This document shows positions 4,429 to 62,186 of a DNA stretch of 64,000 nucleotides, one piece after another. Below the pieces are notes generated by a model. It was not told the DNA's origin, made no database searches, and saw only the letters and a program-made list of their open reading frames with translations. Position numbers and translations under genes: made by a program. The stretch is from contig NZ_JACIDE010000002.1 in the NCBI RefSeq assembly GCF_014196205.1, positions 62,001 through 126,000 of the forward strand, given 5' to 3'. How positions within the stretch are numbered: position 1 is the first letter of the stretch; every line of letters begins with the position of its first letter. This DNA comes from Anoxybacteroides voinovskiense (GTDB taxonomy: Bacteria; Bacillota; Bacilli; Bacillales; Anoxybacillaceae).

Positions 4429-4431
4429 CAT

Positions 4432-6816
<2,385 letters not shown>

Positions 6817-24211: not shown

Positions 24212-26619
24212 AAATTGCCTCTGTCATTGTCGATGTTCCAGCGCGGCAAACCGACCGACCGTTTGATTATGAAATTCCTGCAAAATGGGAAGATGTGCTA
24301 CAAGTGGGGATGCGTGTCACTGTTCCGTTCGGCGCAAGACGACTGCAAGGATTTGTTGTCGACATTAAAACGCATTCAGAAGCAAAGTCGCTTAAACCGA
24401 TCGAAGCCATGTTAGACGTCACCCCAGTTTTAAACGAGGAGCTGTTGCAGCTGGGAAAATATTTAACAGAAACGACGCTTTGCTTTGCTATTTCTGCCTA
24501 CCAAGCGATGCTTCCGGCAGCGATGAAAGCAAAGTATGAAAAAGAAATTCGGCTCGTTGACGAAGCGTATCGCCAAAAATTGCACCCGAGCGTCCAGCCG
24601 CTGTTTGCCAACCGCTCGGCGCTGTTGTGGAAAGAAATCGACGAAACAACCGTCCTTTCACGCTTGCAAAAAGACATTCAAAACGGATATTTAGAAGTCG
24701 TTTACCACGTGAAAGAAAAAGGGTCGAAAAAAATGGTGAAATATATCGCCTGCACGCTTACAAAAGAGCAGTGCGGCGAAGCGCTCCGGTCGCTTCCGGC
24801 AAATGCCACTAAACAAAGGCGACTACTTGAGCTGTTAGTATCGGCACAAAAAGGGTTACCACTGAAAGAAGCGCTCGAGCAAAGCAACGCGTCGCACGCG
24901 GCAGTCAAGGCACTTATCGATAAAGGAATCGTTCGCGAATATGAAGTCGAAACGTATCGCGACCCGTATGAACAGCGCCATTTTGCGAAAACCGTGCCGC
25001 TTTCGCTAACGAACGAACAACAACAAGCACTAGATGCCATTGTTGACAGTGTGCGAAAAAATGAGCATCACGTCTTTTTGCTGTATGGAGTGACGGGCAG
25101 CGGCAAAACAGAAGTATATATGCAGGCGATTGAAGAAGTGTTAGCCCGTGGGAAAGAAGCGATCGTTCTCGTTCCAGAAATTTCGCTTACGCCGCAAATG
25201 GTCGAGCGTTTTAAAGGGCGGTTCGGCTCGCAAGTCGCTGTGCTTCACAGCGGTCTTTCCGTTGGGGAAAAATACGACGAATGGCGGAAAATTCAACGAA
25301 AAGAAGTAAAACTTGTCGTCGGTGCCCGCTCGGCGATTTTTGCTCCGTTTGAAAACTTAGGCATGATTATTATTGATGAAGAACATGAAGCAAGCTATAA
25401 ACAAGAAGAAACGCCGCGCTATCACGCTCGCGATGTCGCTATTTACCGCGCGCGCTTTCATCAGTGCCCAGTTGTGCTTGGCAGCGCCACCCCATCGCTC
25501 GAATCGTTTGCTCGCGCGAAAAAAGGGGTGTATCGTCTGTTGACGTTGCAAAAACGGATGAGCGAAAACGGCTTGCCGACGGTCAACATTATCGATATGC
25601 GTGAAGAGTTGCGGAGCGGCAACCGTTCAATGTTTTCGCGGTCGCTATTTGAAAAATTACAAGACCGTCTACAAAAAGGGGAACAAGCGGTGCTCTTTTT
25701 AAATCGGCGCGGCTATTCTACGTTTGTCATGTGCCGAGATTGTGGGTATGTGATCCGTTGTCCGCACTGCGATATTTCGCTTACGTACCACCGCGTGCAG
25801 CAGCGGCTAAAATGCCATTATTGCGGCTACGAAGAGCACGTTGCTTCGCGTTGCCCGTCGTGTACAAGCGAACACATTCGCTTTTTTGGAGCAGGAACAC
25901 AAAAAGTGGAAGAGGAATTAACGAAATTGCTGCCGCAAGCGCGCGTCATTCGGATGGATGTCGACACGACGAGCCGAAAAGGGGCGCACGAACAGTTACT
26001 TTCTGCTTTCGGTGAAGGGAAAGCGGACATTTTGCTTGGCACCCAAATGATTGCCAAAGGGCTCGATTTTCCGAAGGTGACGTTAGTTGGTGTATTAACG
26101 GCAGATACGATGCTCCACCTTCCGGATTTTCGCGCCTGCGAAAAAACGTTTCAACTATTAACGCAAGTGAGCGGACGAGCGGGTCGGCATCACTTGCCAG
26201 GAGAAGTTGTCATTCAAACGTATACACCGGATCATTACAGCATTGAATTAGCCGCTTGCCACGATTATGAAACGTTTTATCAAAAAGAAATGTTCGTTCG
26301 CAAGCGACACGGCTATCCGCCGTTTTACTATTTAACCCTTATCACCGTTTCGCATCCAGAAATAACAAAAGCCGTAGCGGTGACAGAAAAAATTGCGGCA
26401 TACGTGCGCAGCCAATTGTCAAAAGAAGCGGTCATCCTCGGACCGGTCGCTTCGCCAATTGCGCGGCTCCATGATAGATATCGTTACCAATGCATGATAA
26501 AATACAAGCGGGAGGCGATTACTGCTGTGTTAAAAAACGTGATTGACCGCTACCAGCAAGATATCTCCCAGGGAGAGTTGCAGCTGACGATTGACACCAA
26601 CCCGTATATGATGATGTAA
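24208..26619 (+). CDS. priA: Primosomal replication-restart helicase PriA
   Basis: 3'-5' DNA helicase that reloads the replisome at stalled forks. 803 residues: N-terminal 3'-DNA-binding domain, Walker A GVTGSGKTEVY (about 294-304), Walker B DEEHE, and a cysteine cluster CRDCGYVIRCPHC / CHYCGY / CPSC that binds two zinc ions. The start is a GTG at 24208 with GCGGAGGAAC upstream, overlapping the coaBC stop. Confidence 0.96.
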   Translation: MKIASVIVDVPARQTDRPFDYEIPAKWEDVLQVGMRVTVPFGARRLQGFVVDIKTHSEAKSLKPIEAMLDVTPVLNEELLQLGKYLTETTLCFAISAYQAMLPAAMKAKYEKEIRLVDEAYRQKLHPSVQPLFANRSALLWKEIDETTVLSRLQKDIQNGYLEVVYHVKEKGSKKMVKYIACTLTKEQCGEALRSLPANATKQRRLLELLVSAQKGLPLKEALEQSNASHAAVKALIDKGIVREYEVETYRDPYEQRHFAKTVPLSLTNEQQQALDAIVDSVRKNEHHVFLLYGVTGSGKTEVYMQAIEEVLARGKEAIVLVPEISLTPQMVERFKGRFGSQVAVLHSGLSVGEKYDEWRKIQRKEVKLVVGARSAIFAPFENLGMIIIDEEHEASYKQEETPRYHARDVAIYRARFHQCPVVLGSATPSLESFARAKKGVYRLLTLQKRMSENGLPTVNIIDMREELRSGNRSMFSRSLFEKLQDRLQKGEQAVLFLNRRGYSTFVMCRDCGYVIRCPHCDISLTYHRVQQRLKCHYCGYEEHVASRCPSCTSEHIRFFGAGTQKVEEELTKLLPQARVIRMDVDTTSRKGAHEQLLSAFGEGKADILLGTQMIAKGLDFPKVTLVGVLTADTMLHLPDFRACEKTFQLLTQVSGRAGRHHLPGEVVIQTYTPDHYSIELAACHDYETFYQKEMFVRKRHGYPPFYYLTLITVSHPEITKAVAVTEKIAAYVRSQLSKEAVILGPVASPIARLHDRYRYQCMIKYKREAITAVLKNVIDRYQQDISQGELQLTIDTNPYMMM

Positions 26620-26634
26620 ATTGGAGGAATCATT

Positions 26635-27111
26635 TTGGCGAAACTAACGATAGTTACGTATCCAGCAGAAATATTAGAAACCGTATGTGAAAAAGTCACA
26701 CAATTTGACCGCTCGCTTGTCAAACTACTAAACGACATGTACGACACGATGCTAGAAGCGGACGGCGTTGGCTTAGCCGCTCCGCAAGTCGGCATCGCCA
26801 AGCAAATCGCCATTGTCGATATTGGCGATGAACACGGTCGAATGGAGTTAATCAATCCCGTCATTTTAGAAGCGCGCGGCGAACAAATTGGCCCGGAAGG
26901 ATGTTTAAGTTTTCCAGGGCTATTTGGGGATGTCAGCCGAGCGGAATACGTAAAAGTGCGCGCGCAAAATCGGCACGGTCGCGTGTTTACGCTCGAAGCG
27001 ACAGGCTTTTTAGCGCGGGCGTTGCAACATGAAATCGACCATTTGCATGGCGTTTTATTTACGACAAAAGTCATTCGATATTACGAATCAGAAGAATTGG
27101 AAGGTTTTTGA
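26635..27111 (+). CDS. def: Peptide deformylase
   Basis: Removes the formyl group from nascent proteins. 158 residues with all three family motifs: GVGLAAPQVG, EGCLSFPG (metal-binding Cys) and QHEIDHLHG (metal-binding His and catalytic Glu). The start is a TTG at 26635 with TTGGAGGAA 8 nt upstream. In related genomes fmt follows at once; here a TnpB element intervenes. Confidence 0.95.
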   Translation: MAKLTIVTYPAEILETVCEKVTQFDRSLVKLLNDMYDTMLEADGVGLAAPQVGIAKQIAIVDIGDEHGRMELINPVILEARGEQIGPEGCLSFPGLFGDVSRAEYVKVRAQNRHGRVFTLEATGFLARALQHEIDHLHGVLFTTKVIRYYESEELEGF

Positions 27112-27193
27112 CTGTTAATGATAAATGTATAAATATTTATAAAAATCTGACGATCATTTTATGTGAAAAAAGTCAAAAAGGGGCTGGGAGAAG

Positions 27194-28369
27194 ATGATTC
27201 GCACGTACAAAGTCATGCTTCTGCCCAACAATAAGCAAAAGACGAAGCTTTTTCAATGCGCAGGTGTTGCCAGATGGGCGTATAACTTTGCATTAGCGCA
27301 ACAACAAGAAAATTATAAACAAGGTGGTCAATTTTTGAGTGATGGCGAACTAAGAAAAAGGTTAACGCAGCTTAAACAAACGAAAGAGTACAGTTGGCTC
27401 AATCAATTCTCAAACAACATCACAAAACAAGCAATTAAAGATGCGTGTCAAGCCTACAAAAACTTTTTCGAAGGATGGGCGAAGTTTCCGAAGTTTAAAA
27501 CAAAAAAGCGAACACGCCCAAGTTTTTATCAAGACACCGCCAAAATCAAAGTGACCGACACGCACGTGAAATTAGAAAAACTCACCCCTTCCAAAAAGAA
27601 AAAGAAACAGACATTCAATTGGATACGTTTGGCGGAACGAGGTCGTATTCCTCACGGTGCAAATATAAAGTATGTCAATCCGCGCATCGTGTTTGACGGA
27701 ATGAACTGGTTTTTAACGGTCGGCGTAGAGGAAGGGGAAGTGAAACACGAAACGTACAGCGAAGGCATCGGCATTGATTTAGGGATAAAATCGTTCGCTA
27801 CCGTCAGCAGTGGGATGACATTTCCTAACATCCATCACATGCCTCAAGTGAAAAAACTTGAAAAACAAATCAAACGAATGCAAAGAAAAATATCGCGAAA
27901 ATATGAAATGAACAAAATCCAAATCGAAGGAGGTGAATTCCGTTACAGAAAAACGGAAAACATCAAGAAATATGAATTCCTTGTTTTGAAAAAACGCCGA
28001 AGGCTAAAAAATATCCAGCTAAACTATACCCACCACATCACAACGACGTTGGTGAAAACCAAGCCAGCGTATGTCGTGATGGAAGACTTGAATACAATCG
28101 GCATGTTAAAGAATCGGAAGCTATCGAAAGCGATTCAACAACAAACATTCCACGAGTTCAAGCGGCAAATGACGTACAAATGTGCATGGCATAGTATCGA
28201 GTTGATCGTGGCGGATCGTTTTTATCCGTCAAGCAAAATGTGCAGCTGTTGCGGTCATGTAAAAGAGAAGCTTTCTCTATCCGAACGGACGTATCGCTGT
28301 GAAGCTTGCGGGATAGAAATGGATCGCGACCTCAACGCGAGCATCAACTTGAAAAACTATGCTAAGTAA
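27194..28369 (+). CDS. tnpB: TnpB RNA-guided nuclease
   Basis: 391 residues, Cas12-like RuvC nuclease encoded by IS200/IS605-type elements; family members cut DNA with an RNA (omega RNA) taken from the element's right end. Catalytic residues appear intact: D195 in GIDLGIKS, E297 in VMEDLN, D379 in DRDLNAS. A zinc ribbon is formed by C350/C353 and C369/C372. The N-terminal part (1-110) is the helix-turn-helix/REC-like region. GGGGCTGGGAGAAG precedes the ATG. Full length and intact motifs suggest an active protein (inference). Confidence 0.92.
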   Translation: MIRTYKVMLLPNNKQKTKLFQCAGVARWAYNFALAQQQENYKQGGQFLSDGELRKRLTQLKQTKEYSWLNQFSNNITKQAIKDACQAYKNFFEGWAKFPKFKTKKRTRPSFYQDTAKIKVTDTHVKLEKLTPSKKKKKQTFNWIRLAERGRIPHGANIKYVNPRIVFDGMNWFLTVGVEEGEVKHETYSEGIGIDLGIKSFATVSSGMTFPNIHHMPQVKKLEKQIKRMQRKISRKYEMNKIQIEGGEFRYRKTENIKKYEFLVLKKRRRLKNIQLNYTHHITTTLVKTKPAYVVMEDLNTIGMLKNRKLSKAIQQQTFHEFKRQMTYKCAWHSIELIVADRFYPSSKMCSCCGHVKEKLSLSERTYRCEACGIEMDRDLNASINLKNYAK

Positions 28370-28520
28370 AGCACAACATGTACCCATACGTTAGTGGGGA
28401 AGTGAAGCCTTCGGAGCGCCAAGGAAACGAGAGTAGCTTTTCGCGAAATCGGGCGCGATGAACAAGGAAGGAAACATAGACTTTTATAGGTTTCTTATAA
28501 AGTCTTGTAAGTTTTCTGTA
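28370..28520 (+). ncRNA. Candidate omega RNA scaffold (right end of TnpB element)
   Basis: Directly after tnpB, GAAG/CTTC (near 28400) and GCGCC (28416-28420) with GGCGC (28452-28456) can form stems around a TTTCGCGAAA palindrome (28439-28448), a compact folded region such as TnpB guide RNAs carry. The guide would be the ~16-20 nt beyond the element's right end, inside the fmt leader. Limits are approximate. Confidence 0.4.
28479..28504 (+). repeat. Right-end imperfect palindrome with bulged T
   Basis: GACTTT pairs with AAAGTC and ATA with TAT, leaving a single unpaired T in the 5' arm and a 7-nt loop. Hairpins with an unpaired base in the stem are the known recognition structures of the Y1 transposase TnpA. 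Confidence 0.5.
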
Positions 28521-28534
28521 ACGGATAGATACGT

Positions 28535-29482
28535 ATGGTGCGAATTGTTTTTATGGGAACACCGGATTTTGCTGTTCCGGTGCTCCAACAACTCATTCAC
28601 GACGGCTATAATGTCGTCGGTGTCGTTACACAGCCCGATAAACCAAAAGGACGCAAAAAAGAACTAACGCCGCCACCAGTGAAAGTGGAAGCGGAAAAAC
28701 ATGGCATCCCGGTATTGCAGCCAACAAAAATTCGCGAAAAAGAACAATACGAGCAAGTGCTTGCACTGAAGCCTGATTTAATCGTGACGGCTGCGTTCGG
28801 GCAAATTTTGCCGAAAGAATTGCTTGAAGCGCCATCGTACGGCTGCATTAACGTCCATGCGTCATTGTTGCCGGAATTGCGCGGCGGTGCACCGATTCAT
28901 TATGCGATTTTGCAAGGAAAAACAAAGACGGGCATTACCATTATGTATATGGTCGAAAAGCTCGATGCCGGCGATATGTTGACGCAAGTGGAAGTGCCGA
29001 TTACAGAAACAGATACGGTCGGTACGCTTCACGACAAATTAAGTACAGCAGGCGCGAAACTATTATCGGAAACGATTCCTTTATTGCTTGCCGGAAAAAT
29101 TACGCCGATTCCGCAAGCAGAGGAAAAGGCAACGTTTGCGCCAAATATTAAGCGGGAACAAGAAAAAATCGATTGGACAAAAACAGGCGAAACGATTTAC
29201 AACCACATTCGCGGCTTACATCCGTGGCCGGTCGCCTATACAACATACGAAGGGCAAGTGTGGAAAATTTGGTGGGGAGAAAAAGTCGCAGCACAAACAA
29301 ACGCTGAACCAGGAACGATTATCGCTGTAGAACGCGATGGTATCGTCGTTGCGACAGGCAATGAAACGGCCATTAAAATTACCGAATTGCAGCCGTCCGG
29401 CAAAAAACGAATGAGCGCAGCGCAATTTTTGCTCGGCGCTGACATTATGATTGGGAAAAAGCTAGGAGATGACAATGAGTAA
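28535..29482 (+). CDS. fmt: Methionyl-tRNA formyltransferase
   Basis: Formylates the initiator Met-tRNA, the partner activity of def. 315 residues. N-terminal formyltransferase fold with [10 protein letters not shown], the catalytic region [17 protein letters not shown] and DAGDML; C-terminal tRNA-binding domain. The start is ATG 28535 (GTG 28538 is possible). The ribosome-binding site is poor (GGATAG), perhaps because the TnpB element separated the gene from its original leader. The end overlaps rsmB by 8 bases. Confidence 0.95.
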
Positions 29483-62101: not shown

Positions 62102-62186
62102 TATAATCTTTGTGACTTAGGCTTAAGTCGTTAAAACGATGTTCCGCTGCTAATCATTAGTATGAGCATCTGTTGGAAGGAGTGGA
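62102..62186 (+). promoter_or_regulatory. rplS promoter -10 box and candidate L19 leader
   Basis: TATAAT at 62102-62107 is followed by a structured leader: GACTTAGGCTTAAGTC forms a hairpin (62114-62129), and GATG...CATC (about 62139-62171) another, ending just before the ribosome-binding site. A ribosomal protein L19 leader family is known in Firmicutes and this region is a candidate; I could not check the consensus. Confidence 0.45.

Follow-up and report, generated by a model that had tools for sequence, protein, structure and literature searches.

Introduction

TnpB nucleases of the IS607 family use RAGATH-18 RNAs, together with their flanks, as guide scaffold, and these RNAs co-occur solely with IS607 TnpB (Ren et al., 2024; PMC11061315). 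In that study, both tnpA and tnpB were present in 80% of IS607 loci, the target-adjacent motif (TAM) was AGGAG in 18 of 22 strains and GAGGG in 4 of 22, and the best guide was 20 nt long. The guide scaffold of IS200/IS605 elements, unlike RAGATH-18, overlaps the tnpB coding sequence (Ren et al., 2024). Here we analyze a 64,000-nucleotide stretch of the Anoxybacteroides voinovskiense genome (contig NZ_JACIDE010000002.1, positions 62,001 to 126,000, hereafter "the window"), in which an element carrying tnpB lies between def and fmt. Its ends, GG exchange, empty site, guide RNA family, active site and position between the fmt Shine-Dalgarno sequence and start codon can all be read from the DNA itself. 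It is very probably a non-autonomous IS607-family element with an intact TnpB and a RAGATH-18 guide RNA, which would have lost its own serine-recombinase tnpA and be retained through the action of TnpB.

The element itself belongs to an already described nuclease family. It resembles ISFba1 and the other active systems among the 23 of Ren et al. (2024) in the size and sequence family of its TnpB, a RAGATH-18 scaffold outside the coding frame, a pseudoknot (PK2) that joins scaffold start and end, a TAM-like purine flank and a guide taken from the right flank. It differs from these systems in having no tnpA, which is not rare given the 80% of loci with both genes, and from ISFba1 in its right end (TAACGG with GG exchange, whereas the ISFba1 scaffold ends A-G next to a TAM of AGGAG), the TAM and guide of the window copy being predicted ones. 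The GG exchange dinucleotide and the lack of target duplication are shared with IS607 as described in the available text of Chen et al. (2018; PMC6188088), from which the window copy is set apart by the missing tnpA and by host flanks with a purine motif longer than (G)GG. IS200/IS605 TnpB such as ISDra2 (8bf8) have the catalytic core and zinc ribbon in common with it, but another guide scaffold, other ends and another transposase type. Finally, the available text of Mears et al. (2025; PMC11870625) describes a TnpB gene drive in which an element spreads, as may be the case here, through cutting of empty sites; that work concerns IS200/605 in plasmids, whereas our case is a natural chromosomal tract alone.

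A tnpA-less element between def and fmt

The features of the insertion are as follows (window coordinates).

27105 to 28524, + strand: tnpA-less IS607-family element, 1420 bp (empty site in G006 with a 2-base GG overlap; both ends common to multi-copy relatives)
27105 to 27165, + strand: left end of the element, common to other solo copies
27166 to 27198, + strand: possible remnant of the tnpA 3' end, KKVKKGLGEDD against AKKMIKELTEND of L145 (a short and moderate match, made by eye)
27194 to 28369, + strand: tnpB, 391 aa, with RuvC triad D195/E297/D379 and zinc ribbon intact (open reading frame, Pfam, structure alignment)
27099 to 27104, + strand: GGAAGG, predicted TAM and pre-insertion fmt Shine-Dalgarno sequence, its terminal GG being the exchange dinucleotide (sequence; left flanks of 16 and 30 insertions; TAMs of Ren et al., 2024)
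26635 to 27111, + strand: def (peptide deformylase), final residue and stop supplied by the element (NCBIfam, 172.9 bits)
28535 to 29482, + strand: fmt (methionyl-tRNA formyltransferase), frame intact, Shine-Dalgarno sequence split off (NCBIfam, 391.5 bits; pairing comparison)

In the congeneric genome G006 the window sequence through 27104 runs directly into that from 28523, overlapping it by two bases, which sets the limits of the element at 27105-28524. This junction matches the joined window flanks with zero mismatches over 53 bases before and 36 after, and the GG found at both element borders occurs once in the empty site. Such an exchange of GG with no further target duplication, a mark of IS607, is seen again at a second site, L167, which is empty in eight of eight genus mates (with an exact 2-base overlap in five). 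The first-pass annotation, made from the window sequence alone, had placed the element at 27112-28530, a few bases off, and had advised a comparison with empty junctions of relatives; that comparison fixed the ends through G006 and found all 9 fetched def-fmt junctions of relatives free of the element. Among the matches listed for 61 genomes, a complete occupied junction was found only in the window genome (G000) and in its sister species G005. The C-terminus of Def now reads ELEGF, with a stop codon from the element, instead of ELEG in the empty state. The same annotation noted the separation of two genes that act on a shared pathway; the position is not about that pathway, and what the insertion did was to cut off the ribosome-binding site of fmt, the usual position for this family.

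A solo TnpB with an intact active site and no tnpA nearby had also been proposed, and on each of these points our results agree; the list of open reading frames between 25000 and 31000 holds no tnpA-like frame adjoining tnpB. The serine-recombinase tnpA that stands beside tnpB in IS607 is absent from this copy, which is an IS607 derivative and not a complete IS607. In relatives, a serine-recombinase tnpA directly precedes a homologous tnpB (G005, contig C288; G001, contig C10). The window copy looks as if it had kept the left end and the last codons of tnpA, followed by tnpB, and solo copies of the same build occur in several genomes.

A second IS607-type lineage is present in the window genome (L146, contig C12, positions 1-1800), with a serine tnpA and, behind it at the edge of the contig, the beginning of a tnpB-like gene distinct from that of the window element.

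TnpB and its guide RNA

The tnpB gene is a single open frame with an ATG start. Its product has three Pfam domains above cut-off, i.e., Cas12f1-like_TNB (the zinc ribbon, 79.5 bits), HTH_OrfB_IS605 (60.9) and OrfB_IS605 (37.6), and passes the NCBIfam guided_TnpB model (299 vs. a cut-off of 100). The closest solved chain is 8iaz (E 2.4e-69), whose record title is just "Transposase" and which, from the description in Ren et al. (2024), would be the TnpB of ISFba1. D195, E297 and D379 of the window protein align to columns that we take as D194, E290 and D371 of ISFba1, presuming that chain and paper numbering differ by 3; these three residues are the ones mutated by Ren et al. (2024), and the third column is A in 8iaz, as in a D371A mutant. 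The window copy thus combines the features of a RAGATH-18-guided nuclease, namely a RAGATH-18 RNA downstream of tnpB and an intact RuvC triad and zinc ribbon, and its TnpB is predicted to carry out RNA-guided cleavage beside a purine TAM.

28408 to 28469, + strand: RAGATH-18 motif of the guide scaffold (Rfam RF03064, 63.4 bits, gathering score 44.9)
28389 to 28393, + strand: PK2 5' arm, CGTTA (can pair with 28519-28523; arms co-vary between subfamilies)
28519 to 28523, + strand: PK2 3' arm, TAACG, at the right end of the element (pairing with 28389-28393)
28479 to 28504, + strand: hairpin with one bulged T, a variable scaffold stem (sequence and fold)
28525 to 28544, + strand: predicted 20-nt guide ATAGATACGTATGGTGCGAA, spanning the fmt start codon (follows the scaffold end; 20 nt after Ren et al., 2024; 20/20 in G006)

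The RAGATH-18 motif starts 38 nt past the tnpB stop codon. An omega RNA right after tnpB and a guide drawn from the fmt leader had been suggested in the first-pass annotation, and both agree with the predicted scaffold and guide positions. That annotation also pointed to the bulged-T hairpin, which is present in sequence and fold; it does not stand as an IS200/IS605 right end, being absent from three copies (L048, L076 and L167), and is a stem of the guide scaffold that varies between copies. The PK2 arms change together by subfamily (TAAC/GTTA, CAAC/GTTG, TAGC/GCTA and, in one case, L221, TGGC/GCCA). The pairing is possible at 78 of 90 anchored sites vs. 64 of 90 with shuffled tails, a count that is weak alone because one subfamily dominates. 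PK2 makes the end of the scaffold coincide with that of the element, so that the guide is expected to begin at 28525, and the predicted 20-nt guide matches the empty def-fmt junction of G006 at 20 of 20 positions.

A mechanism can be proposed. TnpB would bind a scaffold that ends at the right end of the element, and the 20 nt beyond it (fmt leader and start codon) would serve as guide. The resulting ribonucleoprotein would recognize a purine-rich, Shine-Dalgarno-like TAM with its adjoining target, and would cut element-free alleles, whose repair from an element-bearing copy would restore or spread the insertion.

Another open frame, 28458-28667, starts within the RAGATH-18 motif and crosses the right end; we set it aside as out of frame with fmt. 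At L150 (G029) a similar frame runs on into downstream sequence. Four further RAGATH-18 elements (L236, L237, L238 and L259) have the right end GTAGCGG, a further type that was left unscored.

A tract shared with the sister species

25748 to 28560, strand not applicable: near-identical tract common to G000 and G005 (background identity ~92%)

Between these two genomes, 6 of 1357 bases differ in the left flank, none of the 1420 in the element, none of the next 36, and then 79 of 1000. The fmt insertion is therefore common to both through recombination, not through two transpositions. The 36 bases to the right of the element are also identical in G006, which is element-free, so the right border of the tract may lie anywhere in 28524-28560; for the same reason a chance estimate of 0.06 for these 36 identical bases was not used.

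On balance, the likelier route of this transfer is ordinary DNA uptake and recombination with no cut by TnpB. Any transfer leaves a high-identity tract, and the identity of G006 over the 36 right-hand bases means that these bases do not place the border at a cut site. Furthermore, the insertion shared by G026 and G028 is reversed: its sharp border lies on the left and its right arm is raised, contrary to what copying-in predicts. Two observations speak weakly, from few cases, for a TnpB-induced break instead. The right border lies at most 36 nt from the element whereas the left arm spans 1.36 kb, an asymmetry that fits repair of such a break, and the insertion shared by G034 and G008 looks alike (9 differences in 515 nt on the left against a ~90% background, and a first right-hand difference at +19). 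A long left arm with a guide-side border near the element is what TnpB-break repair would be expected to leave, and we treat the involvement of TnpB as a lead only. The tract common to the sister species is a natural case of possible chromosomal spread through TnpB-directed copying.

For the insertion shared by G008 and G028 the left side is absent. The 45 synonymous and 11 nonsynonymous differences in 766 nt of fmt between G000 and G005 lie outside the shared tract and are uninformative on translation after the insertion.

Insertion between Shine-Dalgarno sequences and start codons

To the window we added the 100 listed RAGATH-18 matches over the gathering score, 55 from 41 family genomes and 45 from 398 genomes of the phylum (taken as Bacillota). 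Counting each distinct 15-nt right flank once left 97 sites in 34 genomes. A site passed when, 5-11 nt past the right end and in the same orientation, there was an ATG, GTG or TTG with 60 or more open codons (for L211 the right end had first been adjusted manually). Overall, 72 of the 97 sites passed, and 54 of 97 did so with ATG alone. By right-end type, the rule was passed by 50 of 59 TAACGG, 9 of 14 CAACGG, 12 of 20 TAGCAG, 1 of 2 TGGCAG and 0 of 2 TAATGG sites.

Positions shifted 15-250 nt further downstream passed at only 9-16 of 96 sites, positions shifted upstream at 0-4 of 97, and random window positions in 12% of cases. In the window, purine motifs lie 5-11 nt before a start codon at 123 of 654 (RRRGG), 30 of 81 (GGRGG), 21 of 70 (AGGAG) and 25 of 49 (GGAGG) occurrences, and the 72 of 97 exceeds both GGRGG (Fisher test P 5e-7) and GGAGG (P 0.005). 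These controls are shifted positions and the motif counts of one window, with no other transposon family among them; HEARO (IscB) sites were considered for negative control, but 250 genomes yielded 3 matches over cut-off, too few for use. The rule was fixed after the first 97 sites had been seen and was then applied unchanged to 24 new loci, from another class and from genomes not used before, among the matches listed. One locus below cut-off was omitted, and 5 of the remaining 23, whose end motifs are off the fixed list (GTAGCGG, TAACGA), were left unscored. Of the 18 scored sites, 15 passed (P 0.015 vs. window GGAGG); shifted positions gave 0-4 of 18.

On the left side, among 16 sites selected by alignment score with no requirement on composition, positions -5 to -1 were all purine in 14 and GG occupied -2 and -1 in 13; we read the three others as one-base offsets or a duplicated left end. 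Both ends were found at 30 sites, with a left-end finder that demanded purines at -5 to -3 and GG at -2 to -1, so that the sequence logo and effect size of this set are biased. Omitting four sites with no start codon left 26, and in all 26 the predicted pairing with the 16S tail (the anti-Shine-Dalgarno sequence) is weaker in the occupied than in the joined state. Median pairing energies are -12.3 kcal/mol joined and -4.2 occupied, compared with -3.8 for random 22-mers of the window; 4 of the 26 occupied sites remain at -8 kcal/mol or below. For L037, whose flanks are the same as those of the fmt site of the window, the values are -9.4 joined and -3.8 kcal/mol occupied.

We lean toward viewing RAGATH-18 IS607 elements as Shine-Dalgarno-directed transposons, which would use the ribosome-binding sequence as TAM while the guide reads the translation start. 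If the TAM is the Shine-Dalgarno sequence, retained copies come to lie before start codons, in sense, with the coding frame spared and a host promoter likely upstream. It is tempting to speculate that such elements can borrow host promoters and find landing sites before a large fraction of genes wherever a host relies on Shine-Dalgarno sequences. This family-wide position, if it stands, would explain the published TAMs AGGAG and GAGGG and predict element locations in any genome. It is stated nowhere in the literature that we searched, most subscription journals lying outside the scope of that search, and the main text of Ren et al. (2024) contains neither "Shine" nor "ribosome".

The start-codon pattern could instead be a by-product of a TnpA preference for GG, in which purine GG motifs often happen to be Shine-Dalgarno sequences and intragenic insertions are purged. 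We consider this somewhat unlikely. It is in keeping with the GGAGG sites of the window, 25 of 49 of which precede a start codon by 5-11 nt anyway, and with the available text of Chen et al. (2018), where IS607 prefers (G)GG with no further pattern. Against it, the 72 of 97 sites exceed the window rates of GGAGG, GGRGG and RRRGG alike, the 15 of 18 new sites exceed that of GGAGG, and the purine motif of the left flanks extends past GG. Selection may add to a TAM effect.

Genes that lose their ribosome-binding site

NCBIfam models identified the following genes behind insertions: argS, ysxC/engB, pcrA, GAPDH, mnmA, mutS, def, ribonuclease M5, hslV, pyrR, fmt, glpX, ribD, bshA, metA, dGTPase, addA, yebC and ftsE. 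These 19 were picked for scanning as recognizable, and fragments often scored below full-length cut-offs; the starts of ribonuclease M5 and ftsE lie 13-14 nt past the right end, i.e., outside the rule. The gene behind L167 was named Fur-like by eye from its sequence. Downstream frames are open over the length fetched, with the Shine-Dalgarno sequence detached. In model Bacillota, several of these genes are essential or close to it. If elements are directed in the proposed way, a downstream gene would lose its ribosome-binding site even where it is argS, ysxC/engB, pcrA or fmt, and the host or the element must then offer another translation start. This raises the question of how genes are translated whose Shine-Dalgarno sequence gave way to a transposon end. 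A look by eye for a substitute Shine-Dalgarno sequence or an outward promoter in the right end found nothing convincing, in line with pairing at about the random level.

The 1.3 Mb draft genome G407 holds nine RAGATH-18 copies (L212-L220) of equal match score, with contigs that end inside the element. Some of these copies precede genes such as ysxC and GAPDH, and IS607 tnpA has no match in G407.

Present state of the element

Several observations weigh against a TnpB-retained IS607 derivative as we describe it, or against parts of that description. The window protein fails both family-specific NCBIfam models, and scores higher with IS200_TnpB (238 vs. a cut-off of 425) than with IS607_TnpB (186 vs. 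350). The scaffold alone folds barely better than its shuffles (z -1.81; 7 of 200 as good). The start-codon rule fails at 25 of 97 sites, more often for TAGCAG (12 of 20 pass) than for TAACGG (50 of 59), and fmt would have to be translated without its Shine-Dalgarno sequence. No cognate tnpA was found in the draft genome of the window, the sole IS607 tnpA over cut-off, on contig C12, adjoining a different tnpB-like gene. Likewise, the single-contig genome G034 has seven RAGATH-18 copies and no IS607 tnpA over cut-off, and just four of the seven have an open tnpB of roughly full length, which together leaves present mobility unproved.

The window copy might accordingly be a dead passenger that is intact only through recency, its expression and mobility gone. 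The missing cognate tnpA, the identity of the element between two species, such as a recent transfer would leave, and the shortened or broken tnpB of three of the seven G034 copies would all suit such a state, which we nevertheless regard as unlikely given that tnpB frame and scaffold are intact both here and in the four other G034 copies.

A tamed, non-cutting repressor of fmt is very improbable. TldR proteins are nuclease-dead TnpB regulators with a degenerate RuvC site, and the place of the element in the leader of one gene, with a guide spanning that leader, would suit one; the RuvC triad is intact, however, many similar copies precede unrelated genes, and the insertion itself disrupts the target site. 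Hardly credible, finally, is the IS605 type implied by the first-pass annotation, a solo TnpB that a Y1 (HUH) TnpA would mobilize in trans and whose right end would be marked by the bulged-T hairpin, for although the genome has two Y1 transposase genes, the Pfam names are of IS605 type and IS200_TnpB outscores IS607_TnpB (both below cut-off), no Y1 gene is adjacent, the hairpin is missing from three copies, the scaffold is a RAGATH-18 one outside the tnpB coding sequence, GG is exchanged at the borders and close relatives have an adjoining serine-recombinase tnpA.

Other features of the window

Elsewhere in the window, two PyrR binding sites were found at 2370-2467 and 4430-4585 (Rfam RF00515, 57.3 and 56.1 bits), as in a pyr operon, as well as a ribosomal protein L19 leader at 62136-62172 (RF00556, 43.5 bits).
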